Positions 1-15,858 of a DNA stretch of 35,586 nucleotides are shown here, one piece after another (positions within the stretch are counted from its first letter, which is position 1; each line of letters begins with the position of its first letter). The position numbers and the translations under genes were made by a program. Below the pieces are notes generated by a model, which worked only from the letters and a program-made list of their open reading frames with translations, was not told where the DNA came from and made no database searches. The stretch is from Myxococcales bacterium (lineage in GTDB: Bacteria; Myxococcota_A; Polyangia; GCA-2747355), in contig JAGQIK010000029.1 in the NCBI GenBank assembly GCA_020431405.1, forward strand, positions 1-35,586. Reading direction: 5' to 3'.

Positions 1-2275
1 CGCGTCCCGAGTAGAGCGTCGGGCCGAGCAGGCCCACCGTCGGCAGCCCGCTGGAGGGATCGAGGTCGACGCCCACGTGCTGGCGCGCGCCGCTCACGTC
101 GACGGCGTCGCACAGCAGCCGGTCGGCGATCGCGAGCGCGAGCGTGCGCGGCTCGGCGGCGGGCCTCGAATCGCGGGTCGCGCCGCCGCCGCCGTCCGCG
201 GCAAGCTTGGCGGGTGACGCGGATTCGGCGACGCCGGTTTCGGCCGGGGCGCCATGCAGCCGCTGGCGCGCCGCGCTCGCCGCGTGCAGCGAGGTCTCGA
301 TGAGCGCCGACTGCAGGTGCAGGTCGTCGGGTCCGAGCGCGCGCAGGCCGCGGTGCAGGGCCTGCCAGGGCGCCATCGGCAAGACGTCGCCGGCGATCTC
401 GAGCGGTGCGTGCTGCTCGGCGCCGACGGCGTCGCGCGCGAAGAGGCCGGTGCCATCGGCGCGCGCGAGGAAGCGCGGCACGTCGCCGCGCCACAGCGCG
501 CGGTGCTCGGCGCGCAACACGGGCAGCGCCCAGGGCGGCGCACCATCCTCGAGGGCCGCTGGCGCGAGCCGATCGAAGCTCAGACCGCGCACCACCGCAT
601 CGCGCAACAGCGTGGGGCGACGGCTGTGGCGCAGCAGCGTGTCGTAGGTCGTGGTGGGACGCAGCACCACGCGCGTCCAAGCGCTGCGCAGCGCGGCGAG
701 CGGGCCGCCGTCCTCGCGCGCGAGCGTGTCGGCGTGGGCGGCGAGCGCATCGTAGGTGCAACGGAAGCCTTCGAGCACGCGCGCGCGCCGCTGTGCCGCC
801 GCCTCGCGCGTGCTCGCGCGCGCACCGCCGTCTCGCAGGCGCGGCTGGCTGGCCTGCGAGACGATGCGCTCGGTTGGCACGATGCGCATCTCGTCGCTGT
901 TGGGCGCGCCTTCGAAGCGGTACGCCGTACGCGCCCCGGCAGCTTCGCGCGCGCCGAGGCCGCTGTGGTCGCCGACAAAGCCACCCGGCTCGCGCGACGG
1001 CTGGGGCAGCAAGCCCGTGCGCAGCACCGAGCGGGCGAGGCGGATCGCGGCGTGATCGTCGGCGCTCGCCTCGTCTCCTGCGTCGGGGAGCGCCGGCGCG
1101 AGCAGCGTCTCGTGGTCGACGAGCAGCGGCTGATCGGCGGCGGCGATGAGGTTTTCGTGATGGTAGTCGACGCCCTGCAGCACGTGCACCAGCGCCAGCA
1201 GCGCGCCGCTTCGGCGCTCGAACTGGGCCAGCGCCGCCTCGTCGGGGCACGGCGCGGGCGCGACGCGCTCGACGTAGCCGTACCCGTCGCGCTCGAGCAC
1301 GCGCAGTGCGCGCAGCGCGGGCAGCGGCGCGTCTCGCGCTTCGAGCCACGCCACCAGCGCGAAGAACGCGCGCTCGGTGGTCAGGTCCTTCGGCTTGTAG
1401 ATGACCGCCTGGCCGTCGGCGAAGCGCAGCGCGGCCACCTGCCGCCCGCCATCGTGCGGATCGGAGAGCGACAGGTCGAGGGCGCTGAGCTCGCCGCGCG
1501 CGCCGAAGGTCGCCTCGAGCTGGGCGCGGTCAGCGTCGACCCGCGCCAGCAGCTCGGCGCTGCTCGCGACCCACAGATCGAGGCGCGTCGCCCAAAGGCG
1601 CGCGAGGCACGGATAGCCTGCCAGCAGCGCGGCGGCGCGGGCGCCGTGAAGCTCGGCCACCAGGCCGTCGTAGATCACCGTCGGCGGCGCGCCCTCTGCA
1701 CGCGGCGTGTTCGACGCGGCGCGCTTGGCGTCGAGCTCGCCGAGCAGCGTCTGCGTGCCGGCACGCGCCAGCTCGCGCGCCAGCGCACGAGCGAGCTGAC
1801 GGCGCGGCCGCGCCGCGAGCCTCAGCCAGCGCTCGCCCACCTGTCGCTCGAGCCGCGCGAGCCCAACCCGCACCCACGGCCGGTAGTAGTGCGCGAAGGG
1901 CAGCGGCTCGCTGTCGTCGCCCTCCGCCTCGAGCTCGGCGAGCTCGGCGAGCGTCGGCTCGCCGGTGCCTTCGCGCATGGCGTCGAGCACGTCGCCGATA
2001 ATGTCGAGCCAGGGCGGCCGCGGATAGTCGTCGGCCAGCGTGATCGGCCCCAGCGCCCGCGCGGCGGCGGCGCGATCAAGACCCTCGAGGGCTAGCCGTC
2101 GCTCGAGCGCCGCCTCGCCGCCGAGCAGCGCCTGCCAGCGCCCGAGCAGCGCATCACGGCGCGCCCTCGGCAGCTCGCCAAAGCACTGCGGCTCGCGACG
2201 AAAGAGCGCGAAGCGCTCTACGAGGTCAAACGAGCCGGCGACGAGCCCCAGCCCCGCGCCCTCGCCGCCGCGCAC
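1..2275 (-). CDS. lanM: Class II lanthipeptide synthetase LanM, N-terminal dehydratase part (C-terminus beyond left edge)
   Basis: Translating the minus strand from a GTG at 2275 gives about 758 codons open to the left edge. The frame carries the LanM dehydratase signatures in order. Residues 283-296 (LRFADGQAVIYKPK) match the family block ending YKPR. GYGYVE is near 331-336. YHHENLIA at 371-378 and VDHET at 386-390 match the conserved nucleotide-binding and catalytic region. Later come RPTTTYDTLLRHS and the PRFLARADG block. Enzymes of this family phosphorylate Ser/Thr of a precursor peptide and eliminate phosphate to give Dha/Dhb. A C-terminal LanC-like zinc cyclase normally follows at about residue 700-1000 and would lie outside the window. 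The start is 14 bp after the radical SAM stop with an AGGCGG upstream, so the two are probably co-transcribed. I am sure of the family, less sure of the exact start. Confidence 0.9.
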   Translation of the reverse strand, partial: MRGGEGAGLGLVAGSFDLVERFALFRREPQCFGELPRARRDALLGRWQALLGGEAALERRLALEGLDRAAAARALGPITLADDYPRPPWLDIIGDVLDAMREGTGEPTLAELAELEAEGDDSEPLPFAHYYRPWVRVGLARLERQVGERWLRLAARPRRQLARALARELARAGTQTLLGELDAKRAASNTPRAEGAPPTVIYDGLVAELHGARAAALLAGYPCLARLWATRLDLWVASSAELLARVDADRAQLEATFGARGELSALDLSLSDPHDGGRQVAALRFADGQAVIYKPKDLTTERAFFALVAWLEARDAPLPALRALRVLERDGYGYVERVAPAPCPDEAALAQFERRSGALLALVHVLQGVDYHHENLIAAADQPLLVDHETLLAPALPDAGDEASADDHAAIRLARSVLRTGLLPQPSREPGGFVGDHSGLGAREAAGARTAYRFEGAPNSDEMRIVPTERIVSQASQPRLRDGGARASTREAAAQRRARVLEGFRCTYDALAAHADTLAREDGGPLAALRSAWTRVVLRPTTTYDTLLRHSRRPTLLRDAVVRGLSFDRLAPAALEDGAPPWALPVLRAEHRALWRGDVPRFLARADGTGLFARDAVGAEQHAPLEIAGDVLPMAPWQALHRGLRALGPDDLHLQSALIETSLHAASAARQRLHGAPAETGVAESASPAKLAADGGGGATRDSRPAAEPRTLALAIADRLLCDAVDVSGARQHVGVDLDPSSGLPTVGLLGPTLYSGR

Positions 2276-2289
2276 GACCGCCTGACCGC

Positions 2290-3945
2290 CTACGCGCTGG
2301 CGACCGCCGCGCGCTCGACGCCGGCGAAACGCCGCAGCAGCTTGTCGACCTCGGCTGCCACCTCGGGCCCGCGCGCACGCAGCGTCGCCGCCGGCGTGCG
2401 CTCGACGAACAGCTGCTGGTAGAGCTCGCGTTGCGCGCTGCCGTTGAGCCGCGCCGCATAGGCCTGCGTACGCACCACCGTGCGCGGCTCGCCGGCGATG
2501 GTCACCGCGCGCCGCTCGCCGACCGTCGCCGGCAGCTCGTCGCTGCGCTCGACCAGCACCTCGAAGTAGGTTACCTGCTGCGAGCCGCTCGCCAGCTGGT
2601 CGCCCACGCGGCGGATGAAGTTGGCGTCGGTGAGCGACTCGCCTTCGTCGAGGCACGCGCCGAGGGCGGCGAGCGTCTCGGCGTCGCGCTGGCGGCGCAG
2701 CGCGCGCGTGCGCTGCACGTCGAGGTTGTGATAGGCGTGGCCGTCGTCGATGGTCAGCCGGTAGCGCCGCATCTCCATCGGGATGTCGATCAGCTCGAAG
2801 CGCAGGTCCGGGAACGCCCCGCGCACGTCCTCGAAGGAGCAGCCGTCCAGCGAGTGCGTGCGGTTGATCCACCAGATCGACGACGGCAGCAGGATGCGCC
2901 CCAGGGGACGATCCGCGCGCCGCTCGCGCAGCATCGCCTCGATGGCGGCGATGATGTTGGTCGACGTCAGCGAGGTGGTGAAGCTGGTGGTGCCGCCCAG
3001 CGAGTCCGATACGTCGACCACGTCGATGCCCTCGTCGACCACCAACGCACGCATCATCGGCGCGGCGCCGCGCGAGGTGAAGATCACGTCGCCCGCCCGC
3101 GCCTCGTAGCGGCGCAGCAGCGCGCGCAGCATGTTGCGGAAGCGGAAGACATAGGCGTCGGGCGGCGAGTGCAAGAAGATGTCGGCGAAGCTCTCGTAGC
3201 GCTCGCGATGCTTGACCAGGTACGCCGCCAGCTCGCTGAAGTCACAAGCTTCCTTGGCGAGATCGGCCATATCCTGGCCGTGCAGCTGGTTGTAGTGCAG
3301 GTAGGTAATGATCACCGACGCGCGCTCGCCGCTCTTGGCGACGGCGCCGCGGATCACCTCCAGGTCGGCCAGCGTGCGCTCGAAGCCGAGGTTGAGCATG
3401 TACAGCCGCGGCGCGCGCAGCACGCTGACCAGCTCCGCGAGCTTGGCGCCGCTGACGTAGCGCTTGAATAGACGCGGGCGCATCTCCTCGTCGAAGCTCA
3501 TCGCCGACAGGCCCAGGCGGAACGTGTCGGGGTAGGCCTCGGTGAGGCGCTTGGCGAGCGCCGGCTCGAGGAAGTTGCCCGGCGTCGAGAGATAGAGGCG
3601 CTTGCCACGCGCGTCGTTATTGCCGGCGAGCCGCATGATCTGGTCGTCGCTGAGCCCCTGCACGAACGGGTCGGACATCGACGAGTAGTGCACTGTGCCG
3701 TCGTCGAAATATACCGGCGACACCGGGAAGGCGATCTGTCCGGCGTGCTGCAGCTCGTCCATGTAGTGGTCGAACGAGGCGTCGTCGTAGGTGGGGATCT
3801 TCGCCAGCTTCACCGCCGGAAAGATCTTGTGCATGTGGTACTCGTAACAGAACTTGCAGCCGGCGGGACAAGGCGAGCGCAGGGGCATCACCCCGGCGTC
3901 GGCAGCGGCCTCGAGCAGCGCCAGATGTTCGTCGCCTCGCTTCAT
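2290..3945 (-). CDS. Radical SAM enzyme, probable RiPP tailoring enzyme
   Basis: A 551-residue protein. The CX3CX2C cluster motif for the radical SAM [4Fe-4S] centre is Cys26, Cys30, Cys33 (CPAGCKFCYEY), placed close to the N-terminus. The C-terminal part has very few cysteines, so there is no SPASM or twitch domain with auxiliary clusters. The C-terminal 250 residues, containing DVIFTSRGAAPMM and LLPSSIWWINRTHSLDGC, are a domain I do not recognise. The ATG at 3945 has AGGAG about 9 nt upstream; the same frame stays open far upstream, but that part is antisense to the carbamoyltransferase gene. It is followed after 14 bp by lanM and transcribed away from the carbamoyltransferase gene. Its position suggests a radical modification of the same peptide (inference); the chemistry (epimerisation, methylation, crosslink, other) cannot be read from the sequence. 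Confidence 0.87.
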   Translation of the reverse strand: MKRGDEHLALLEAAADAGVMPLRSPCPAGCKFCYEYHMHKIFPAVKLAKIPTYDDASFDHYMDELQHAGQIAFPVSPVYFDDGTVHYSSMSDPFVQGLSDDQIMRLAGNNDARGKRLYLSTPGNFLEPALAKRLTEAYPDTFRLGLSAMSFDEEMRPRLFKRYVSGAKLAELVSVLRAPRLYMLNLGFERTLADLEVIRGAVAKSGERASVIITYLHYNQLHGQDMADLAKEACDFSELAAYLVKHRERYESFADIFLHSPPDAYVFRFRNMLRALLRRYEARAGDVIFTSRGAAPMMRALVVDEGIDVVDVSDSLGGTTSFTTSLTSTNIIAAIEAMLRERRADRPLGRILLPSSIWWINRTHSLDGCSFEDVRGAFPDLRFELIDIPMEMRRYRLTIDDGHAYHNLDVQRTRALRRQRDAETLAALGACLDEGESLTDANFIRRVGDQLASGSQQVTYFEVLVERSDELPATVGERRAVTIAGEPRTVVRTQAYAARLNGSAQRELYQQLFVERTPAATLRARGPEVAAEVDKLLRRFAGVERAAVASA

Positions 3946-4074
3946 CGTCCGTCTCTCCTGGAGCGGTGCGCAACGGGTCAGCGTACCACGAAGTCTCGAT
4001 GCAGCTTCGCTCCGCGTGTCGCACGCCGAGAGGCGCAGAAAAGCGCTGCGCCCGCTGCTACCATCCTCGGTCAG
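3946..4074. promoter_or_regulatory. Divergent intergenic region between radical SAM and carbamoyltransferase genes
   Basis: This 129-bp gap must hold the 5' ends of both divergent transcripts of the peptide-modification cluster. The only clear element is the AGGAG ribosome binding site of the minus-strand gene next to 3946-3960. No convincing -35/-10 pair is visible in this GC-rich stretch, and no credible precursor-peptide reading frame was found here. Confidence 0.4.
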
Positions 4075-5904
4075 ATGACAAACGCTGCCGACGACAAGGT
4101 CGTATTCGGGGTCAACATCAGCCACGACATGGCGTGCGCCGCCATCGTCGGTGGCGAGGTCAAGGTCGCCATCGCCGAGGAGCGGCTCAACCGCGTCAAG
4201 CACTGCACCGGCGCGACCCAGTTCGGGCGCATCATCCCCTACCGCGCGATCCGCTACTGCTGCGACGTGCTCGGCATCCACCCGCGCGAGGTCGACCTCT
4301 TCGTCGCCAACTCGTGCCGCAGCAACGCGCGCGCGATCCTCGCCTCGCAGCTGATCGGCATCGACGACGAGCGCGTGGTGACCCTGCCCCACCCCGCCCA
4401 TCACCTCGCCCACGCCTACTCGGCGCTCTACTGCTCGCCCTTCCGCGAGGCGGCCGTGCTGATCATGGACGCCAACGGCTCGTTCATGGAGCAGCCTGGC
4501 ACGCGCCCCGACTCGCTGCTGCTGCAGCAGAAGGAGCACTACGCCTGCTTTCGCGGCGACGACGAAGAGCTCGCGCTGGTTCATCGCGAGTTCATCGACC
4601 CCGGCGAGGTCAGCGTCGGCGAGATGTACAACATCTACTCGGCCGCGCTGCAGCTGACGTTCAAAGACGGCACCTACGGCATGGACGATCCGCTCTCGGC
4701 GGGCGGCAAGCTGATGGGCCTCGCCTCGCATGACCTCGGCCGCGCGCCCGCTGCCGAGCTGTGGCCGCGCGGCGAACGCGACGGCGACAGCTGGCGCCAC
4801 CTCGGCGTGCGCACCGACCGCCTCGTCGAGCAGATCGCCAAACACGGCCTCGTCGAGCGCCACGACCGCGGCCTCGATCGCGTGTTCGGTTTCTCCATGC
4901 GGCGCTTCGTCGACTTCGTGCTGCGCGGCGAGCGCAGCCTCTCCGACCCGCGCTACCTCGCGCTGGCCGGCGAGGCGCAGCGCACGCTCGAAGCCGTGCT
5001 GCTCGAGCTCGGCGCGCGGCTCGCGCGCGTCACGGGGCTCTCGAACCTGTGTCTCGCCGGCGGCACGATGCTCAACGTCACCGCGGGCACGCGCATGCTC
5101 GAAGAGCTCGACTTCGAGCGGCTCTTCATCCAACCCGCCGCCAACGACGCGGGCAACGCCATCGGTGCCGGCCTCTATGGCTACCGCGAGCTGCTCGGCG
5201 GGCGGCGCCGCCCCTACCTCGACAAGCCCTACGACACCTGCCTCGGGCGCGTGTACTCGAGCGCCGAGATCGAAGCCGCTATCGAGCGCGCCAAGGCTCG
5301 GCTCGCCAGCGCTGGCTCGGGAGCGAGCTTTTCGGCGCGCCGTTGCGAGCGCCTCGACAGCCGCGCAGAGGCGTTGATGCCGTACCTGCTCGAAGACCGC
5401 GTCATCGCCGTCTTCGACGGGCGCTCCGAGTTCGGGCCGCGCGCGCTGGGCCACCGCAGCCTGCTGGCGCTGCCGCGCGACGCTGCCATGCGCGACCGCA
5501 TGAACGAGCTCAAACACCGCGAGTGGTATCGCCCCGTGGCACCGGCGATCCTCGCCGAGCACTTCGACGAGTACTTCGAGGCGCCCTTTTCCAGCGTGCC
5601 CTACATGACGCTCGCCGCGCGCTGCCGGCCGATCGTCGCCGAGCGCGCCCCCGCCGTGCGCCACGTCGACAACTCGGCGCGCCCACAGACCGTCACCGCC
5701 GAGCAGAGCCCGCTGATGTTTCGCCTGCTGCAGGGCGCCAAACAAGCCACTGGCACGCCGATCCTCGTCAACACGTCGTTCAACGTGCAGGGCGAGCCCA
5801 TCGTCGAGACGCCCGACGAAGCGATCGCCTCGTTTCTCGGCGCGCCGCTGTGCGCAGCGCTGAGCCTCGGCGACTTCGTGCTCGAGAAGGACAATCGTGA
5901 CTAG
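4075..5904 (+). CDS. Carbamoyltransferase, NodU/CmcH/TobZ family
   Basis: A 609-residue protein with both domains of the O-carbamoyltransferase family. The N-terminal Kae1-like domain begins FGVNISHDMACAAIV and has the metal-binding HHLAH at residues 109-113 followed by AYSALYC. The C-terminal YrdC-like domain contains GPRALGHRSLLALP (about 453-466), the EWYRPVAPAI block and NTSFNVQGEP (about 566-575). Family members transfer carbamoyl from carbamoyl phosphate via carbamoyl-AMP to a hydroxyl of a sugar or natural product. The start is the ATG at 4075, where conservation with the family begins; upstream in-frame sequence is antisense to the radical SAM gene. The stop overlaps the YcaO start by 8 bp, so the two are translationally coupled. 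The acceptor could be a Ser/Thr side chain of the peptide or a sugar added to it; this is inference. Confidence 0.92.
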   Translation: MTNAADDKVVFGVNISHDMACAAIVGGEVKVAIAEERLNRVKHCTGATQFGRIIPYRAIRYCCDVLGIHPREVDLFVANSCRSNARAILASQLIGIDDERVVTLPHPAHHLAHAYSALYCSPFREAAVLIMDANGSFMEQPGTRPDSLLLQQKEHYACFRGDDEELALVHREFIDPGEVSVGEMYNIYSAALQLTFKDGTYGMDDPLSAGGKLMGLASHDLGRAPAAELWPRGERDGDSWRHLGVRTDRLVEQIAKHGLVERHDRGLDRVFGFSMRRFVDFVLRGERSLSDPRYLALAGEAQRTLEAVLLELGARLARVTGLSNLCLAGGTMLNVTAGTRMLEELDFERLFIQPAANDAGNAIGAGLYGYRELLGGRRRPYLDKPYDTCLGRVYSSAEIEAAIERAKARLASAGSGASFSARRCERLDSRAEALMPYLLEDRVIAVFDGRSEFGPRALGHRSLLALPRDAAMRDRMNELKHREWYRPVAPAILAEHFDEYFEAPFSSVPYMTLAARCRPIVAERAPAVRHVDNSARPQTVTAEQSPLMFRLLQGAKQATGTPILVNTSFNVQGEPIVETPDEAIASFLGAPLCAALSLGDFVLEKDNRD

Positions 5905-7168
5905 CGCTCGTCCGCTGTTCGACTCGCCGGCGCCCAAGGGCTACGCCACGGGCACCACGCGCACGCGCGCGCCCGCCGAGACGCTGGCGCTGATCGAGCC
6001 GCTGGTGGCGCGCTTCGGCGTCACGCGGCTGGCCAACATCACCGGCCTCGATCGCATCGGCATCCCGGTCTACCAAGCGGTACGTCCCAACGCGCGCTCG
6101 CTGTCGGTCTCGCAGGGCAAGGGGCTCGACGCGCCGAGCGCGCAGGTCTCGGCGCTGATGGAGTCGCTCGAGTCGTACCACGCCGAGCACGCCCGCTGCG
6201 CCGTGCGCCTCGAGAGCCAGCGCGCCCTGGCGCGCGAGGCCCGCGTCGCCGATCCGACGCGCCTTCCGCTGGCGCGCGGCACACACTACCAACCCGACGC
6301 ACCGCTGCCGTGGACCGCCGCGCGCGACCTGCGCAGCGACGAGCCGGTGTTCGTGCCGTTCGAGATCGTGCACGCCAACTTCACCGTGCCGCGCGTGCCA
6401 GGCAGCGGCGCGTTCTCGCCGAGCACCAGCGGGCTCGGCTCGGGCAACCACATCGCCGAGGCCACGCTGCACGGCATCTGCGAGCTGATCGAGCGCGACG
6501 CCGAGACGCTATGGCGAATCGCCGGCGGCGAGGCGGGCAGCGCTTATCGCGTGGCGCCCGAGAGCATCGACTACGCGCCGGCGCGCGCGCTCGTCGAGCG
6601 CTTCAAGGCCGCCGGGCTCGACGTGATGATCTGGGACATGACGTCCGACGTGCAGGTGGCGGCGTTCTCGGTGATCGTCTTCGACCCCGAGTCCGACGCC
6701 GACCTCAACCCATCGCCGGCCGCCGATGGCTCGGGCGCCCACCCCGACCGCGACGTCGCGCTCTGCCGCGCGCTGACCGAAGCGGCGCAGAGCCGGCTGA
6801 CCGCTATCGCCGGCTCGCGCGACGATTTCACGCTGGCGCTCTATCAAGGCACGCAGCGCGCCGAGGTGCTCGATCACTTCCGCACGCTGGCGCGCGCGCC
6901 CGCCGAGCGCAGCTTCGAAGAGGTGCCGGTCTTTCGCGGCGAGAGCATCGACGACGACCTCGAGCACGTGCTCGATCGCCTCGCCGGACGCGGCATGAGC
7001 GAGGTGCTGGTGATCGACCTCTCCAGCCCCGAGCTGGCCGAGACGCCGGGGCTGCGCTTCGCGCGCACCGTGGTGGTAGGGCTCGAGACGTCGATCGCTT
7101 CGCCCTCCTACGCCCCGCGCGAGCGCGCCCTGGCGCGACTGGCGGCGCTCGAGGCGGCCGGCGCATGA
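5897..7168 (+). CDS. YcaO-domain protein, TfuA-associated (probable peptide thioamidation or cyclodehydration)
   Basis: A 423-residue stand-alone YcaO protein starting with a GTG inside the end of the carbamoyltransferase gene. The family ATP/Mg site is visible as Glu-rich helices: MESLESYHAE (88-97), then STSGLGSGNHIAEA (about 176-189) leading into ICELIERDAE with E196 and E199, and RALTEAAQSR near 290. YcaO enzymes phosphorylate a backbone amide oxygen with ATP, allowing attack by a Cys/Ser/Thr side chain (azoline) or external sulfide (thioamide). The C-terminus ends YAPRERALARLAALEAAGA and lacks the PxPxP tail usual in azoline-forming YcaOs. No ThiF/Ocin-type partner is adjacent; instead tfuA overlaps its stop by 4 bp (ATGA). 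That arrangement is typical of thioamide-forming pairs, so thioamidation is the favoured reading. Confidence 0.92.
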   Translation: MTSARPLFDSPAPKGYATGTTRTRAPAETLALIEPLVARFGVTRLANITGLDRIGIPVYQAVRPNARSLSVSQGKGLDAPSAQVSALMESLESYHAEHARCAVRLESQRALAREARVADPTRLPLARGTHYQPDAPLPWTAARDLRSDEPVFVPFEIVHANFTVPRVPGSGAFSPSTSGLGSGNHIAEATLHGICELIERDAETLWRIAGGEAGSAYRVAPESIDYAPARALVERFKAAGLDVMIWDMTSDVQVAAFSVIVFDPESDADLNPSPAADGSGAHPDRDVALCRALTEAAQSRLTAIAGSRDDFTLALYQGTQRAEVLDHFRTLARAPAERSFEEVPVFRGESIDDDLEHVLDRLAGRGMSEVLVIDLSSPELAETPGLRFARTVVVGLETSIASPSYAPRERALARLAALEAAGA

Positions 7169-8214
7169 GCGAGACGCGCAGCAGCGAGACGGTCGTCTTC
7201 CTCGGCCCGACCCTCGCGGCCGAACGCGCCAGCGCGGCGCTCGAGGGCGCCGAGCTGCGGCCGCCGGCGCGCGCCGGAGATGTGCTGCGCGCGCTTCGCG
7301 ACGGGGCGCGGCGCATCGCGATCATCGACGGCTACTTCGACCGCGTGCCCTCCGTCTGGCACAAGGAGATCCTCTTCGCGCTCGAGCGCGGCGCGCTGGT
7401 CTATGGCGCCTCGAGCATGGGCGCGCTGCGCGCGGCCGAGCTTCACAGCTTCGGCATGATCGGCGTCGGCCGCATCTTCGAGATGTATCGCGACGGCGAG
7501 CTCTGCGACGACGACGAGGTCACGATCATCCACGGTCCCGCAGACAGCGGCTACCGCGCGCTCTCCGAGGCGATGGTCAACGTGCGGCATCGTTTGGCCG
7601 AAGCCGTGGCCGCCTCGGTGCTGGCCGCGAGCGCGGCGGCGCAGATCATCGGCGCGGTCAAGGCGCTGCCCTATCGCGCGCGAAGCTACGGCCGGCTGCT
7701 GGCGCTTGCCGCCGATTCGCCACAGCTCGAAGGCGACACCCTCGAACGGCTGCGCGCCTTCGTCGAGACCCCGCACGACAGCCTCAAGACCCTCGACGCG
7801 CTCGCGCTGCTCGAGCGCATGGCGGCAGGCGAGGACGACGCGCCGCGCAGCGAGCGGCCGCGCGTGGAACGCACGGTCTTTCTCGAGCGGCTGCGCCTCG
7901 AGGTGGCGCGCGAAGCACGGCCGCAGGCCAGCGCCAGCAGCAGCGACGGCGACGATGACGACGACGCGCCGCCAGCCGACGAGCGCGCGCTGCTCGAGCT
8001 GCTCGCCCGCCAGCACGCCGACCTCTTGGCGCTGCGCCCCGACGAGCACGCCCTCGAACAGGCCGCGCACGAGCTGGGGCTGCCGCCCGAGCATCCGCGG
8101 GTGCGCGAGCGCTCCTTCGTGCTGCACCTGCGGCGGCTCTACGGGCCCGAGATCGATCAGCGCGTACGCCGCACGAAGACATCGACCTCGTCGAAGTTGC
8201 CGTCGGCCAAGTAG
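7165..8214 (+). CDS. tfuA: TfuA-like protein, YcaO partner
   Basis: A 349-residue protein whose first 120 residues match the TfuA core: VVFLGPTL (10-17), LRPPARAGDV (31-40), IAIIDGYF (51-58), VPSVWHKEIL (61-70), VYGASSMGALRAAEL (79-93), then FGMIGVGRIFEMYRDG and CDDDEVT. TfuA partners are thought to deliver sulfur to, or stimulate, YcaO enzymes in thioamide formation. After the core comes a helical region, an acidic low-complexity linker (SDGDDDDDAPPADE, about 258-271) and a further helical C-terminal segment I cannot assign. The ATG overlaps the ycaO stop (ATGA), indicating translational coupling. The last 58 bp overlap the 3' end of the convergent glycosyltransferase gene, so the Ser/Thr/Lys-rich tail (RRTKTSTSSKLPSAK) may be a run-on extension. 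Confidence 0.93.
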   Translation: MSETRSSETVVFLGPTLAAERASAALEGAELRPPARAGDVLRALRDGARRIAIIDGYFDRVPSVWHKEILFALERGALVYGASSMGALRAAELHSFGMIGVGRIFEMYRDGELCDDDEVTIIHGPADSGYRALSEAMVNVRHRLAEAVAASVLAASAAAQIIGAVKALPYRARSYGRLLALAADSPQLEGDTLERLRAFVETPHDSLKTLDALALLERMAAGEDDAPRSERPRVERTVFLERLRLEVAREARPQASASSSDGDDDDDAPPADERALLELLARQHADLLALRPDEHALEQAAHELGLPPEHPRVRERSFVLHLRRLYGPEIDQRVRRTKTSTSSKLPSAK

Positions 8215-10016
8215 CCGATGCGAAAGCTGCCCACCCGGCGATAGCGGCGCGGTAGAAGCTCGCTGCGCACGCGCCACAAAAGCCGGCTGGCGCCCCACAA
8301 GCGATTGCCGAAGAGCGTGTAGAACGCCGCCGTCGAGCCCTTGGGACCGATCACGATGACCTTGGGCGGGCTGCGCGACAGACGCGCCATGTCGAGCTCG
8401 ACGTAGCGGTCCCAGTACTGATCGATGAATGCGATGGCGCCGGCGAGCGGCGGGCGTGGCCGCTCGAACCAGGCATGCACGTTGGGATCGTCGGGCAGCA
8501 GCAGCACCGACTCGCCGGGGTGTGCGAGCGCTCTCACGCGTGCGACCACCTGGCGCAGCCCCTCGGCGCGCGGCTGCAGCTTGGCGCCGCGCAGGTGGCG
8601 CACCTCCGGCCAGACGCGCGTGCAACGCGACGCCACCTCGACGTTGCCGGCCAACGTCGGCCACGTGCCGAGCACCGCCGCGGCGCAGACGATCGTCACG
8701 GCGACAACGCGCGCGGCGGCGCGTGTCGTGGCGAGCAGGCGGCTGACCGCGAAGAGCTCGGCGACAAACGCGCCCAGCGCGACGACGACCAGCGGGTTGT
8801 TGTCGAAGTACCAGCGAAAGACGTTCGTCGAGAGCGAGTGGCTTACCGCCGCCGGCGCGAGCACCACGAACAGCGCCGCGCGCGCGTCGGCCTGGCGACC
8901 CTCGCGCGCGCGCACGAGGTCCCACGCGCTGCCGAACAGCGCCAAGAAGAAGCCCAGCCACAACAGCGCGTTGACCAGCAGCACCGGATGGGCGCGCGCG
9001 TAGGTGACGACCTTCGAAGCGAGGTCGCTGGCCTGCACGAACAGCGCCGGCGAGAGCAGCGCCGCCACCCACAGCCCCGTCATGGCGACGCTGCTCGCCA
9101 GCAGCGCGCGCGCCGCCGGCCCGTCGCTCACTTGCGCCGGCCGAGCCCGCAAGAGCCGCGCGCGCCGCGTGATCCAGACGATCACCAGCGCCACCAGCCC
9201 GTGCTTGCTCAGCGCGACGGCAAGCGAGCGCGCGTAGATCCCGAGGTTGCGAAGCAGCTCTCCGCTGCCGCCCTTGGGCTCGGCGCCGGTGAGAAAAACG
9301 TCGCGCAAGAGGCCTCGCGGGTCGACCAGCGGCGAGAGCACCAGCACTAGCACGGCGAAGAAGGCGAAGGTCCAGGCGGCGTGGTCAAGCGCGCGCCCTA
9401 GTCGCCAGCGGCGCGGCATCGTGCGCCCCGTCAGCAGGTAGGCGAGCAGCACGCCGAAGGTCAGCCCCGCCGCCGTGCTCTGCTTGGAGAGCATGCAGAT
9501 CGCGTTGAAGCAGGCGCCCAGCACGAACCAGCGTCTGCTCGCCGTGCGCAGCGCGTAGACGACGGCGGCGCAGGTCCAGGCCGCGGCGCACTGCGCGACC
9601 GTGTCGTGGATCGCCATCTTGGGCAGCGCGAAGATCACCGGCACCGCGGCCAGCGCCGCGCACAGCGGCACCGGACGCTCGAAGGCACCGCGAAGCGCCG
9701 TGTAGCCGCCGAGCACCAGCAGCGCCTGCGCGCCGAAGTGCATCGCGCTCTCGGTGAGCCACACGCCCTCGCCGCCGCCGACGAGATACTCCAGCACGTA
9801 CGGGATCGGCGGCATCGGCACGTGCATGCCGTCGGCATAGAGCGGCACGCCATCGGCGAGGCGGTTGGCGACGGCCACCATCCAGCCCTGGAACTCGTGA
9901 TCCATCCAGATCGAGCTCCAGTGGGCGGGGATCAAGCGCACACCGATGGGCGCCATCACCAACAGCAACAGCAGGACATCGAAGACCAGCCACGCGCGTT
10001 CGTTTCGCCCGCCCAT
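8157..10016 (-). CDS. Multi-pass membrane glycosyltransferase, GT-C/PMT-like
   Basis: A 619-residue protein with about ten hydrophobic segments, beginning with one at residues 10-29, and a soluble C-terminal domain of roughly 160 residues. The first extracytoplasmic loop contains D39-H-E41 (IWMDHEFQGW), the acidic motif typical of GT-C glycosyltransferases that use polyprenyl-phosphate-linked sugars. A YADGMHVPMPP block follows. The soluble part has a SVLLLPDDPN and a KVIVIGPKGS segment. It is 8 bp downstream of the JmjC-like gene on the same strand and converges on tfuA with a 58-bp overlap. It could glycosylate the peptide product or be an unrelated envelope enzyme. Fold class is fairly secure; donor and acceptor are unknown. 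Confidence 0.8.
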   Translation of the reverse strand: MGGRNERAWLVFDVLLLLLVMAPIGVRLIPAHWSSIWMDHEFQGWMVAVANRLADGVPLYADGMHVPMPPIPYVLEYLVGGGEGVWLTESAMHFGAQALLVLGGYTALRGAFERPVPLCAALAAVPVIFALPKMAIHDTVAQCAAAWTCAAVVYALRTASRRWFVLGACFNAICMLSKQSTAAGLTFGVLLAYLLTGRTMPRRWRLGRALDHAAWTFAFFAVLVLVLSPLVDPRGLLRDVFLTGAEPKGGSGELLRNLGIYARSLAVALSKHGLVALVIVWITRRARLLRARPAQVSDGPAARALLASSVAMTGLWVAALLSPALFVQASDLASKVVTYARAHPVLLVNALLWLGFFLALFGSAWDLVRAREGRQADARAALFVVLAPAAVSHSLSTNVFRWYFDNNPLVVVALGAFVAELFAVSRLLATTRAAARVVAVTIVCAAAVLGTWPTLAGNVEVASRCTRVWPEVRHLRGAKLQPRAEGLRQVVARVRALAHPGESVLLLPDDPNVHAWFERPRPPLAGAIAFIDQYWDRYVELDMARLSRSPPKVIVIGPKGSTAAFYTLFGNRLWGASRLLWRVRSELLPRRYRRVGSFRIGYLADGNFDEVDVFVRRTR

Positions 10017-10024
10017 GCGGCGCG

Positions 10025-11122
10025 TCAGGCGTAGAGGCGCAGCAGCTCGTCACGCGCGAAGGCGGAAAACGACAGCGTCGGCTCCGCGCGAACGTACGTG
10101 GTGTGATACCAGCCCCCCGGCAGCACGAGCACGTCGCCGGGCTGCATGGTGAACGTGCAGCAGTCGGCGCGAAACGTCTCGTCGTCGATAGACTCGGGAT
10201 CGGGCACGGCGCAGAACTGCGAGTCGAAGCCCACCGCCGCGGGCTGTAGGAAAGGCCCCGAGCGCGGCGGGCTGATGATCCACTTCTTGGTGCCGAGCAC
10301 CTGCCAGGCGATGGCGTCGTGGGCGTGGCGGTGCGGGCGCACCACCAGCGACCAGGGCTCGTCGCCCGTAGCGCAGCCTGCGAAGAGCTTCGGCGCGGCG
10401 CAGCGTTCGGCAAACAGCGGCGGCCGAAAGTCTGCTAGCAAGGCGTCGGGCGTGACCACGCCCATGGCGTAGAGCGCCGCGTGAGGGCTTATCGCCGAGC
10501 GCGCCGGCGCCTCGGGCGCAGCATCCGGCGCAAAGAACGACGCCACGTCGACCCATTCTCCCGTGACCCACGTGCGCGCGGCGCCGTAGCGCGCGATGAG
10601 CTCGTCGTAGCTGATGCCGCGCCAGGGGGCCGGGAAGTCGCTGATCAGCAGCGGCGCGGGCTCGCGCAGCGCACGTTCGGCGGCGCGCCGCGTCAGCTCG
10701 AGATCGGTGTGCTCGAGCCGCTCGAGCGTCCAGGCACGGGGCGCGGCGGCTCCGCGGTCGTCGGCCGACTCGAGCGCCTCGACGAAGTGCGCCAGCGGCC
10801 CCTTGGCGAGCACGAAGATCGCCTCGTGCAGGCGGCGCTCGCCTTCGAGCACGACACCTGCCGCGCGCAGCTGCTGCGCGACGTCGGGCGCGTTGCGCAG
10901 GATCCAGAGCATGCGAAAGAGCGTCATCGCCGACATACGCGCCTGCGCTTGCGGCGCGGCGTCCGATACAACGCGCACGCTGTCTGGCTCGACGGCAAAG
11001 TCGAGCTGCGTGTCGAGGTCGTCGAAGACGAAGCGGTAGACGAAGCCACGGTCCAGCGTCGCCGCACCACGCGCGACACCATCACGCAGGTGAGCGATCA
11101 GCTGGCGTTCGATCTCGCGCAT
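10025..11122 (-). CDS. JmjC/cupin-like (cupin_8) putative Fe(II)/2-oxoglutarate oxygenase
   Basis: A 365-residue protein. The C-terminal half resembles JmjC/cupin_8 oxygenases: a FAGC...PWSLVVRPHRHAHD block (about 247-269), then IAWQVLGTKKWIISPP (271-286, the usual QVxGxKxWxLxPP strand), and PGDVLVLPGGWYHTTY (328-343) with the distal metal His340. The proximal ligand motif aligns as H264-x-H266 rather than the usual HxD, an odd substitution. The N-terminal 150 residues are helical and unassigned. I use the ATG at 11122; a GTG at 11137 would add five residues, and neither has a well-spaced ribosome binding site. It is followed after 8 bp by the membrane glycosyltransferase, with which it probably forms an operon. 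Hydroxylation of a peptide or protein side chain is the likely activity (inference). Confidence 0.75.
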   Translation of the reverse strand: MREIERQLIAHLRDGVARGAATLDRGFVYRFVFDDLDTQLDFAVEPDSVRVVSDAAPQAQARMSAMTLFRMLWILRNAPDVAQQLRAAGVVLEGERRLHEAIFVLAKGPLAHFVEALESADDRGAAAPRAWTLERLEHTDLELTRRAAERALREPAPLLISDFPAPWRGISYDELIARYGAARTWVTGEWVDVASFFAPDAAPEAPARSAISPHAALYAMGVVTPDALLADFRPPLFAERCAAPKLFAGCATGDEPWSLVVRPHRHAHDAIAWQVLGTKKWIISPPRSGPFLQPAAVGFDSQFCAVPDPESIDDETFRADCCTFTMQPGDVLVLPGGWYHTTYVRAEPTLSFSAFARDELLRLYA

Positions 11123-11165
11123 CAAGGGGTGTTTCACGCCCCTAGCATACTCGCCCGATAGGCTG

Positions 11166-12065
11166 CTAGCGACCGAGCAGCAGCACCACGCACCAGCCGC
11201 GGCTCGCGTCGTAGGCGCTGCCGATACCGATACGCGAGAGCTTGTTGTCCGACAGCGGCCAGTGCTTGCCGAAGCGCAGCGCGATCTGCCGTGGGTCGCG
11301 CGCGAGCGCGCAGTAGGTGTCGCGCGCCGCGATGCTGGCGGTGCCAAGCTGCCGCGTGATGTGCACCCCATAACGCCGCCCTGGCTGGGGCGAGCCCTGC
11401 CCGAGCTTCGCGCGGGCGTCAGCGTCGGCCCAATAGTCGAGCGCCGCCACGGCCGACAGCTTGGGGCGCTTGTGCTTGGCGCGCTGCGCGTTGATGCGCG
11501 CGAGCAGCGCGCTGCGCACCATCTGAGCGTTGACCACCCGTCGCGACGGCACCTTGGCCATCACCGTGGGGCGCCACATGATGCGCTGCGCCACACCGTC
11601 GATGGCCTGGCGGATGCCCCACAGCGCCACCGGCGCAGCGCTGCCGTACTCCTGCACGGTCTTGGTCTTGCCGCTGCGGCGCGTGACCGTCACGTAGGTC
11701 GACGATTGGCAGGTCACACGTGCACGGTAGCTGTCGTTGAGCTTGAAGAAGCCGAGGTGCGCGAGCAGCTTGGCGAGCTGCTCGAAGCGCCACGGATGCA
11801 GCGCTCCCTTGTGGTGACCCGTGCGCGGCGCGTAGCTGCGCCCGTGGTAGTCGGCCGTGCCGTCGCGCCGCAAGAGCACGGTGTAGGCCGGGCAGCTGCC
11901 GAAGCACATCGTGCGCCGCAACGCGATGCTGACCACGGGGTCCGGCTTGGGCTTGGCCTTCTGGATCTTCGGCAGGGGTGCGCGCGAGGCGTGCGAGGCG
12001 AGCAGCGTCTCGGGCCACATCGCGGCGAGCGCGAAGCAGGCGATCAGGGTGTGAGAGCGGCTCAT
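11166..12065 (-). CDS. Exported DUF6438 + CAP-like domain protein
   Basis: A 299-residue protein with an N-terminal signal peptide (hydrophobic stretch LIACFALAAMW, likely cleavage after LASHASRA). Residues about 40-150 match DUF6438: RRTMCFGSCPAYTVLL, then DGTADYHG and GFFKLNDSYRARV. The C-terminal part starts RINAQRAKHKRPKLSAVAAL and ends IGIGSAYDASRGWCVVLLLG, resembling the first helix and last strand of a CAP/SCP-like domain. The ATG at 12065 gives a normal signal peptide; a GTG at 12080 in the same frame is possible. It lies 42 bp after pgi on the same strand and could be read through from that operon. Function unknown. Confidence 0.72.
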   Translation of the reverse strand: MSRSHTLIACFALAAMWPETLLASHASRAPLPKIQKAKPKPDPVVSIALRRTMCFGSCPAYTVLLRRDGTADYHGRSYAPRTGHHKGALHPWRFEQLAKLLAHLGFFKLNDSYRARVTCQSSTYVTVTRRSGKTKTVQEYGSAAPVALWGIRQAIDGVAQRIMWRPTVMAKVPSRRVVNAQMVRSALLARINAQRAKHKRPKLSAVAALDYWADADARAKLGQGSPQPGRRYGVHITRQLGTASIAARDTYCALARDPRQIALRFGKHWPLSDNKLSRIGIGSAYDASRGWCVVLLLGR

Positions 12066-12107
12066 CGGTGTGCATGACACCGACGCGCGCGAGTTGTTCC
12101 TGGATCG

Positions 12108-13745
12108 CTAGCGGTGCTTCTTGAACCAGTTGATCAGCCCGTTGGTGGAGCCGTCGTGGCTGCTGACGGCGCCGTCGCCTTCGAGCTCGGGCAGGATCGC
12201 CTTGGCCAGCTGCTTGCCGAGCTCGACGCCCCACTGGTCGAAGCTGTTGACGTTCCAGATCACGCCCTGGGTGAAGATCTTGTGCTCGTACATGGCGACG
12301 AGCTTGCCGAGCATCTTCGGCGTGAGCTTGTCGAAGATCAGCGAGTTGGTGGGGCGGTTGCCGGGGAAGACCTTGTGCGGCAGCAGCTTGTCGAGCGCCT
12401 CGCCGGACAGGCCCTGCGCTTCGAGCTCGGCGCGCGCTTCGGCCGACGTCTTGCCCTTCATCAGCGCCTCGGTCTGCGCGAAGTAGTTGGCGAGCAGCTT
12501 GGCGTGGTGATCGCCCACCGGGTTTTGCGACTTGGCGGGCGCCAAGAAGTCGCACGGGATCAGGCGCGTGCCCTGGTGGATCAGCTGGTAGAAGGCGTGC
12601 TGGCCGTTGGTGCCGGGCTCACCCCAGATGATCGGCCCCGTGGTGTAGTCGACGTCGTTGCCGTCGAGGTCGACACGCTTGCCGTTGCTCTCCATGTCGC
12701 CCTGCTGAAAGTACGCCGCGAAGCGGTGCATGTACTGGTCGTAGGGCAGGATCGCGTGCGACTCGCAGCCGAAGAAGTTGTGATACCAGATGCCGAGCAG
12801 CGCCAGCGTCACCGGCAGGTTCTCGTGCCATGGCGCCGTGCGGTAGTGCTCGTCCATGGCGTAGCCGCCGTCGAGGAAGGCGTCGAAGTTGTCCATGCCG
12901 ATGGTCAGCGCCACCGACAGGCCGATGGCTGACCACGACGAGTAGCGTCCGCCGACCCAGTCCCAGAACTCGAACATGTTCTCGGTGTCGATGCCGAAGT
13001 CCGAGACGCCCTTGGCGTTGGTCGACAGCGCCACGAAGTGCTTGGCGACGGCGGCATCGCTGCCGAGCTTGTCGACGAGCCAGCGGCGCGCCGTGTGGGC
13101 GTTGGTCAGCGTCTCCTGCGTGGTGAACGTCTTCGAGGCGATGATGAAGAGCGTCGTCTCCGGGTCGACACGCTTGAGCGTCTCGGCCATGTGGGTGCCG
13201 TCGACGTTGGAGACGAAGTGCGGCGTGATGTTCGTCCAGTACGAGCGCAGCGCCTCGGTGATCATCACCGGCCCGAGGTCCGAGCCGCCGATGCCGACGT
13301 TGACCACGTCGGTGATCGCCTTGCCGGTGTGGCCTTTGTGGGCGCCGCCACGCACGGCCTCGGAAAACTTGCGCATCTTGGCCAGCACGGCTTTGACCTG
13401 CGGCATCACGTCCTCGCCGTCGACCTCGATGGCGCGCGCGCCGCGGTTGCGCAGCGCCACGTGCAGCACGGCGCGGTCCTCGGTGACGTTGATGCGCTCG
13501 CCGGAGAACATCGCGTCGATGCGGCCGCGCAGCCCGCGCTCGTCGGCGAGCTCGCGCAGCAGCGTCATCGTCTCGTCGTCGATGCGGTTCTTCGAGTAGT
13601 CGAGCAGCAGCCCGTCGTGCTCGAGCGAGTAGCGCGCGAAGCGCTCCGCGTCTTTGGCGAACTGGTCGCGCATCTGCGTCGACGCGATCGCCTTCTGCCG
13701 CGCGACCAACGCCTTCCAAGTATTGCTCTGCGTCAACGTGCTCAT
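12108..13745 (-). CDS. pgi: Glucose-6-phosphate isomerase
   Basis: A 545-residue, full-length phosphoglucose isomerase interconverting glucose 6-phosphate and fructose 6-phosphate in the cytoplasm. The sugar-phosphate-binding motifs are all present: [40 protein letters not shown], the catalytic loop [19 protein letters not shown], and the C-terminal signature [16 protein letters not shown]. The ATG at 13745 has AGGGGA about 8 nt upstream. It is 19 bp downstream of tkt and is the last metabolic gene of the operon; here it would recycle fructose 6-phosphate from transketolase back to glucose 6-phosphate. Confidence 0.97.
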
Positions 13746-13764
13746 ATCTCAGTCCCCTGCGCCT

Positions 13765-15858
<2,094 letters not shown>

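Follow-up and report, generated by a model that had tools for sequence, protein, structure and literature searches.

A candidate hybrid pathway for a ribosomal peptide with LanM, radical-SAM, carbamoyltransferase, YcaO and TfuA genes in a Myxococcales genome

In the std pathway of Streptomyces thermodiastaticus (StdFGH, PMC13174530) a YcaO–TfuA pair thioamidates the Asn of the sequence SNKEWQE and a NodU-like carbamoyltransferase converts the Lys after this Asn to homocitrulline, and in the nocathioamides, described as chimeric thioamide lanthipeptides (Saad et al. 2021, as cited in PMC13174530), a thioamide and a lanthionine are brought into one peptide by YcaO–TfuA and a lanthipeptide synthetase. 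Here, we analyse a locus of a Myxococcales bacterium in which a LanM lanthipeptide synthetase, a radical S-adenosylmethionine (SAM) enzyme, a carbamoyltransferase, a YcaO enzyme and TfuA are encoded side by side. The window, i.e., the whole stretch of DNA analysed, is 35,586 nucleotides long and is the entire contig C23 (JAGQIK010000029.1) of a genome of 11.2 Mb in 733 contigs. Judging from the genes, we consider it probable (about 0.6) that one hybrid pathway for a ribosomally synthesized and post-translationally modified peptide (RiPP), split over C265:1-3696 and window:1-8214, acts on both NHLP-leader precursors of this genome.

With std the locus shares the gene order carbamoyltransferase, YcaO, TfuA and a small residue-Lys-Glu near the precursor C-terminus. 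However, in std the carbamoyltransferase forms a fusion with an S8/S53 peptidase and works beside an MNIO with its partner and a SNKEWQE precursor, whereas here the enzyme is stand-alone and the tail is GKECVPW, with Lys-Glu alone in common; moreover, LanM, radical SAM and an NHLP leader are all absent from the std cluster. Membership of the std family was rejected on the missing S8/S53 fusion and the different tail. As far as their description goes, the nocathioamides come closest among published product types; the text citing them (PMC13174530) mentions no carbamoyltransferase. The dehydrazoles, with carnazolamide (LanMbC and YcaO, PMC10676384), also have a DUF4135 dehydratase, a YcaO enzyme and an NH-type leader; carnazolamide has a radical-SAM enzyme and at least one member of the class has TfuA. 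In contrast to our locus, where the cyclase is predicted to bind zinc and no dehydrogenase is seen, they combine a class III-type cyclase that lacks zinc with a dehydrogenase and azoles, and no carbamoyltransferase is described for them (PMC10676384). The prochlorosin system is similar in its CCG-type LanM and in unlinked precursor sites sharing one synthetase, but it has many diverse cores, as opposed to two cores with one tail here. We know of no thioamide, carbamoyl or radical-SAM enzymes in the ProcM system.

The LanM half, the radical-SAM gene and the carbamoyltransferase–YcaO–TfuA set at the left end of the window are too long, and too well supported by domain matches, to be chance frames:

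Window 1-2275, minus strand: dehydratase half of a LanM class II lanthipeptide synthetase, cut off at position 1 (TIGR03897, DUF4135)
Window 2290-3945, minus strand: radical-SAM enzyme, 551 amino acids (CPAGCKFC motif and sub-threshold Pfam Radical_SAM match)
Window 3946-4074, no strand: divergent intergenic region of 129 bp, from the coordinates of both gene starts
Window 4075-5904, plus strand: NodU/TobZ-type carbamoyltransferase, 609 amino acids (PF16861, PF02543)
Window 5897-7168, plus strand: YcaO ATP-dependent backbone-activating enzyme (PF02624), overlapping the carbamoyltransferase gene by 8 bp
Window 7165-8214, plus strand: TfuA, presumed sulfur-delivery partner for thioamidation (PF07812), overlapping the YcaO gene by 4 bp

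A sequence-only reading of this DNA had already noted class II LanM motifs, a CX3CX2C radical-SAM gene 14 bp upstream of them and a divergent coupled trio with overlaps of 4-8 bp, all of which the coordinates and domain matches confirm. The 129-bp divergent region is presumably a bidirectional promoter.

The dehydratase half starts with GTG near 2275 and matches TIGR03897 with 365 bits over model positions 3-598 and DUF4135 at 1.6e-97. Its cyclase half and a precursor had been expected beyond position 1, and both were found on a separate contig, C265, where the LanC half (C265:3-740, in a frame open from base 3) covers TIGR03897 positions 683-929. Since the whole genome contains a single LanM dehydratase match and a single LanC match, both halves are cut exactly at contig ends and their TIGR03897 ranges are complementary, the two are almost certainly one LanM gene; the cluster itself would then be divided by the assembly into the two segments given above. 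The left end of the window is very GC-rich (76%), and the gap between the halves would amount to ~85 amino acids or ~255 bp of unassembled DNA. The alignment with LicM2, checked at the catalytic residues of CylM named in PMC4550811, shows the DxH pair conserved as SDPH and the kinase Lys in YKPK, along with the DxHxEN loop, the metal-binding Asp and the Arg/Thr that serve elimination. The window LanM thus has the features of a class II dehydratase, namely DUF4135 with conserved Lys, Asp/His/Asn, Asp and Arg/Thr. In the cyclase half WCHG is kept and CCG (LCCGRAG) stands where LicM2 has CHG (LCHG); as judged by these residues, it is a zinc cyclase with the ProcM-like CCG motif described in PMC10027976.

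Next to the LanC half lies the gene of a candidate substrate:

C265 757-1095, minus strand: NHLP-leader precursor, convergent with the LanC half and right after its stop (TIGR03793, 1.3e-21)

This precursor has a GG site and a Ser/Thr-rich core with one Cys and Lys. TIGR03793 detects two NHLP precursors in the whole genome, this one and another alone on contig C200, unlinked and with no synthetase nearby. The cores following GG are ASFGSFSASASKFRKIFSMPTSTQGKECVPW and ALGNFSAASASAATRKLSRQLFTPATQTSGKECVPW, and the identity of the pair is 51% over the entire precursor as well as in the leader, 36% in the core minus the tail and 100% (7/7) in the GKECVPW tail. Invariant towards the C-terminus of both are a Thr (five before Cys), Gly, Lys, Glu, Cys, Val, Pro and Trp, while no Asp or Asn is invariant in the two cores. 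Among 84,980 species scanned, the exact tail with its stop codon occurs in no other precursor; the lone other match to the tail pattern was discarded as a chance frame without a precursor. The invariant Gly-Lys-Glu-Cys would fit the needs of the enzymes, with a thioamide at Gly, homocitrulline formed from Lys, and Cys in a (methyl)lanthionine ring. The hybrid peptide proposed from the window sequence has thereby gained a precursor with one plausible target each for LanM, YcaO–TfuA and the carbamoyltransferase in GKECVPW, although the hydroxyl group then suggested for carbamoylation has given way to Lys as the better guess.

In the pathway that we propose, the leader would bring the enzymes to the precursor. 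LanM would dehydrate Ser/Thr and then link the one Cys of the core, which is invariant, to a dehydro-residue upstream of it, most likely that derived from the invariant Thr five residues earlier. At the invariant Gly that precedes Lys, YcaO would activate the backbone and TfuA would deliver sulfur to give a thioamide. The carbamoyltransferase would convert the Lys, likewise invariant, to homocitrulline, the step that StdF carries out on Asn-Lys-Glu once StdGH has acted. The radical-SAM enzyme may add at least one further modification, and a hydroxylase encoded on C265 could act on the invariant Pro, because its nearest structures are proline hydroxylases and the cores have an invariant Pro but no invariant Asp/Asn. 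A C39-peptidase ATP-binding cassette (ABC) exporter encoded on contig C11 may cut after GG and export both peptides. We infer the role of the radical-SAM enzyme, the exact sites of modification and the join of the contigs.

The carbamoyltransferase matches PF16861 (1.9e-57) and PF02543 (3e-27), consists of carbamoyltransferase domains only, without an S8/S53 domain, and has the HHLAHA, SEFGPRALGHRS and NTSFN motifs intact when aligned with carbamoyltransferases of solved structure. The YcaO protein (PF02624, 8.4e-71) can be aligned to MJ1094, and TfuA (PF07812, 1.1e-45; NF033432, 3.4e-59) matches the TfuA structure 6xp8 (1.4e-26). The top NCBIfam match of YcaO is TIGR03266 (McrA-Gly thioamidation, 6e-64); a McrA-type thioamidation system was nevertheless rejected, since the McrA-specific cut-offs are missed by both TIGR03266 (216.3 of 365 bits) and NF033432 (199.8 of 235.2 bits). 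The carbamoyltransferase is a long branch in its tree and its placement is weak, and YcaO groups with the LanM-associated YcaO of locus L061 (below), within a large clade of the class that is itself weakly resolved. Five further YcaO matches and three further TfuA matches are present in the genome. On its contig C510 (L077, 826-3615 and 4911-7676) two very similar TfuA–YcaO fusions of ~925 amino acids flank a divergent gene, and on C501 (L078, 8895-10876) a YcaO–TfuA pair has a Nif11-like precursor with a GVAGGA site directly upstream.

LanM-type dehydratase, YcaO, TfuA and an NHLP precursor recur together in two genomes of the class. In one of these loci, L061 (G434 C154:24000-43500, 5672-10349), an NHLP-like precursor is accompanied by a 512-aa LanM dehydratase without a LanC domain, YcaO, a convergent TfuA gene and a metallo-beta-lactamase-fold gene. 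The other, L096 (G513 C1:4412000-4431900, 2424-14053), contains a SagB dehydrogenase–LanM fusion, two YcaO genes, one of SagD type and the other with TfuA, and an NHLP precursor whose core is thiocillin-like; it looks like a thioamidated dehydrazole. Neither has a carbamoyltransferase, and the cores of both are free of Lys. The carbamoyltransferase–YcaO–TfuA order recurs in two std-type loci of the class, L094 and L095. In L094 (G467 C414, 1141-7792) a peptidase, the carbamoyltransferase and YcaO form one 1476-aa frame, together with MNIO, TfuA and an ABC transporter, and the probable precursor tail is SGKVDPNG, not SNKEWQE; the tails in L095 are SSNKEWQE and SSAKEWQD. In every locus seen with all three genes together, there is a precursor in which a small residue and Lys are followed by four or five residues up to the C-terminus. 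That Lys in the tail tracks the carbamoyltransferase is a lead, not proof, as the sample is small and the pattern was spotted after the fact.

The sequence-only reading had looked to genome neighbourhoods for support: the combination of a LanM-type dehydratase with YcaO–TfuA was indeed met in two other genomes of the class, the full set in none. It had also named a trio without LanM or radical SAM in relatives as evidence against itself. Such a trio exists in two genomes, but its carbamoyltransferase is peptidase-fused, stands with MNIO and falls on other branches, so that it is a different block. Descent of the present trio from std clusters is disfavoured by the trees, and the likeness of its carbamoyltransferase and YcaO to those of std is probably functional and not by descent.

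The stop of the radical-SAM gene lies 14 nt ahead of the LanM GTG. The assignment of its product follows from CPAGCKFC (C-x3-C-x2-C) at residues 26-33 together with a weak Pfam Radical_SAM match (25.0 bits, 2.4e-05; cut-off 29.5). Apart from the three cluster Cys near the N-terminus there are just three Cys, scattered over the protein, and a SPASM-type auxiliary cluster is therefore unlikely. DUF512 was considered for the C-terminal part and found no support, with no PF04459 match to the protein, in the genome or in 28 relatives. The conservation of all five genes that had been hoped for was not borne out, as no homologue of this protein was found in 379 genomes of the phylum, among plasmids or in the scan of 84,980 species, which detects close relatives only. 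Matches in the PDB are at chance level, the protein fits no known subfamily, and its single-sequence fold prediction (pLDDT 43) is unusable.

Two further genes on C265 complete this side of the cluster:

C265 about 1153-2181, plus strand: proline-hydroxylase-like gene (PF05118), divergent from the precursor
C265 2191-3696, plus strand: metallo-beta-lactamase-fold gene

The metallo-beta-lactamase-fold gene has relatives close to a LanM (G450) and close to a carbamoyltransferase and an apparent ABC transporter (G495), and weakly similar genes adjoin YcaO–TfuA in L061 and L064, which supports its membership of the cluster. The G495 locus (L138, C1:6574000-6593500, 6904-15510) has two such related genes, and its apparent ABC transporter carries a cyclic-nucleotide-like domain; it is possibly another RiPP locus. 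Beyond these genes, C265 encodes a kinase, an S-adenosylmethionine decarboxylase and an M28 peptidase. To the right of TfuA, a membrane protein gene and a cupin gene occupy 8157-10909 of the window on the minus strand; the cupin/JmjC-type hydroxylase gene (10028-10909) is coupled to that of the 619-aa membrane protein, convergent with TfuA, and ordinary pentose-phosphate genes follow. No MNIO, peptidase or exporter was found among the cluster genes scanned. The best candidate for a protease and exporter in trans is the C39-peptidase ABC transporter on C11, which has accessory secretion genes beside it and scores 651 of 853 bits, under the NHLM-specific cut-off.

The genes could also belong to two independent neighbours, with LanM (and the radical-SAM enzyme) maturing the NHLP precursors as an ordinary lanthipeptide and the carbamoyltransferase–YcaO–TfuA operon modifying another, unlinked substrate, either a second RiPP or a protein, as with McrA in methanogens. 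We regard this as unlikely. The operon is divergent from LanM, blocks of this trio without LanM exist and YcaO–TfuA is common in this genome; however, the two sides have the presumed 129-bp promoter region in common, LanM-type dehydratases occur with YcaO–TfuA elsewhere, the precursor tail offers a Gly-Lys pair, and the McrA-specific cut-offs are missed. Moreover, no other precursor-like open reading frame with [GNA]K close to its C-terminus lies near the operon, and the separate precursor for the trio that would have spoken against a hybrid peptide was not seen beside it. Less likely still is a single pathway in which a hydroxyl of Ser, Thr or hydroxyproline is carbamoylated in place of Lys, and/or the thioamide is formed elsewhere: the solved relatives TobZ, GdmN and the novobiocin carbamoyltransferase are O-carbamoyltransferases, Ser/Thr abound in the core and a hydroxylase gene is next door, but Lys is the target in the characterised RiPP with the same gene trio (PMC13174530), is invariant in both precursors and is absent from cores at loci without a carbamoyltransferase. 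A dehydrazole-like pathway, with azolines made by YcaO and LanM acting purely as a dehydratase, as in carnazolamide, seems very improbable. That class is defined by DUF4135–YcaO co-clustering with NH-type leaders (PMC10676384), and L096 resembles one with TfuA added; yet the cyclase half retains the zinc ligands (WCHG and CCG) that the LanMs of the dehydrazole class lack, on which ground this identity was rejected, no dehydrogenase was found among the cluster genes scanned and the core has a single Cys.

Our best reading is thus a class II lanthipeptide pathway extended by a pair of proteins for thioamidation and by carbamoylation in the manner of std. Several points weigh against it. There is no physical join between C23 and C265, and LanM lacks ~85 amino acids. 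The full gene set occurs in no relative, so that conservation does not speak for co-function, and the evidence for the pathway is at the level of genes. Only its location, 14 bp ahead of LanM and beside the divergent promoter region that both sides share, links the radical-SAM gene to the cluster, the trees place the carbamoyltransferase and YcaO off the std branches, and the cluster is without a protease or exporter. Two precursors are few for defining a motif, and the DNA of their tails is nearly identical too (95%), which recent exchange between the copies could explain.

The full set of lanthionine, thioamide and carbamoyl enzymes and a relative-less radical-SAM enzyme around one precursor was found nowhere else in the genomes or the open literature searched. 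Tentatively, and with the odds against it, the locus might represent a new hybrid RiPP family in which a (methyl)lanthionine ring encloses a Gly thioamide beside an enzymatic homocitrulline, with further alteration by a new subfamily of radical-SAM enzyme and a second precursor matured in trans. Each enzyme class by itself is already known. The common GKECVPW tail gives sharp predictions on the order and site of modification. If true, the pathway would provide a second case of enzymatic homocitrulline formation, here by a stand-alone enzyme.

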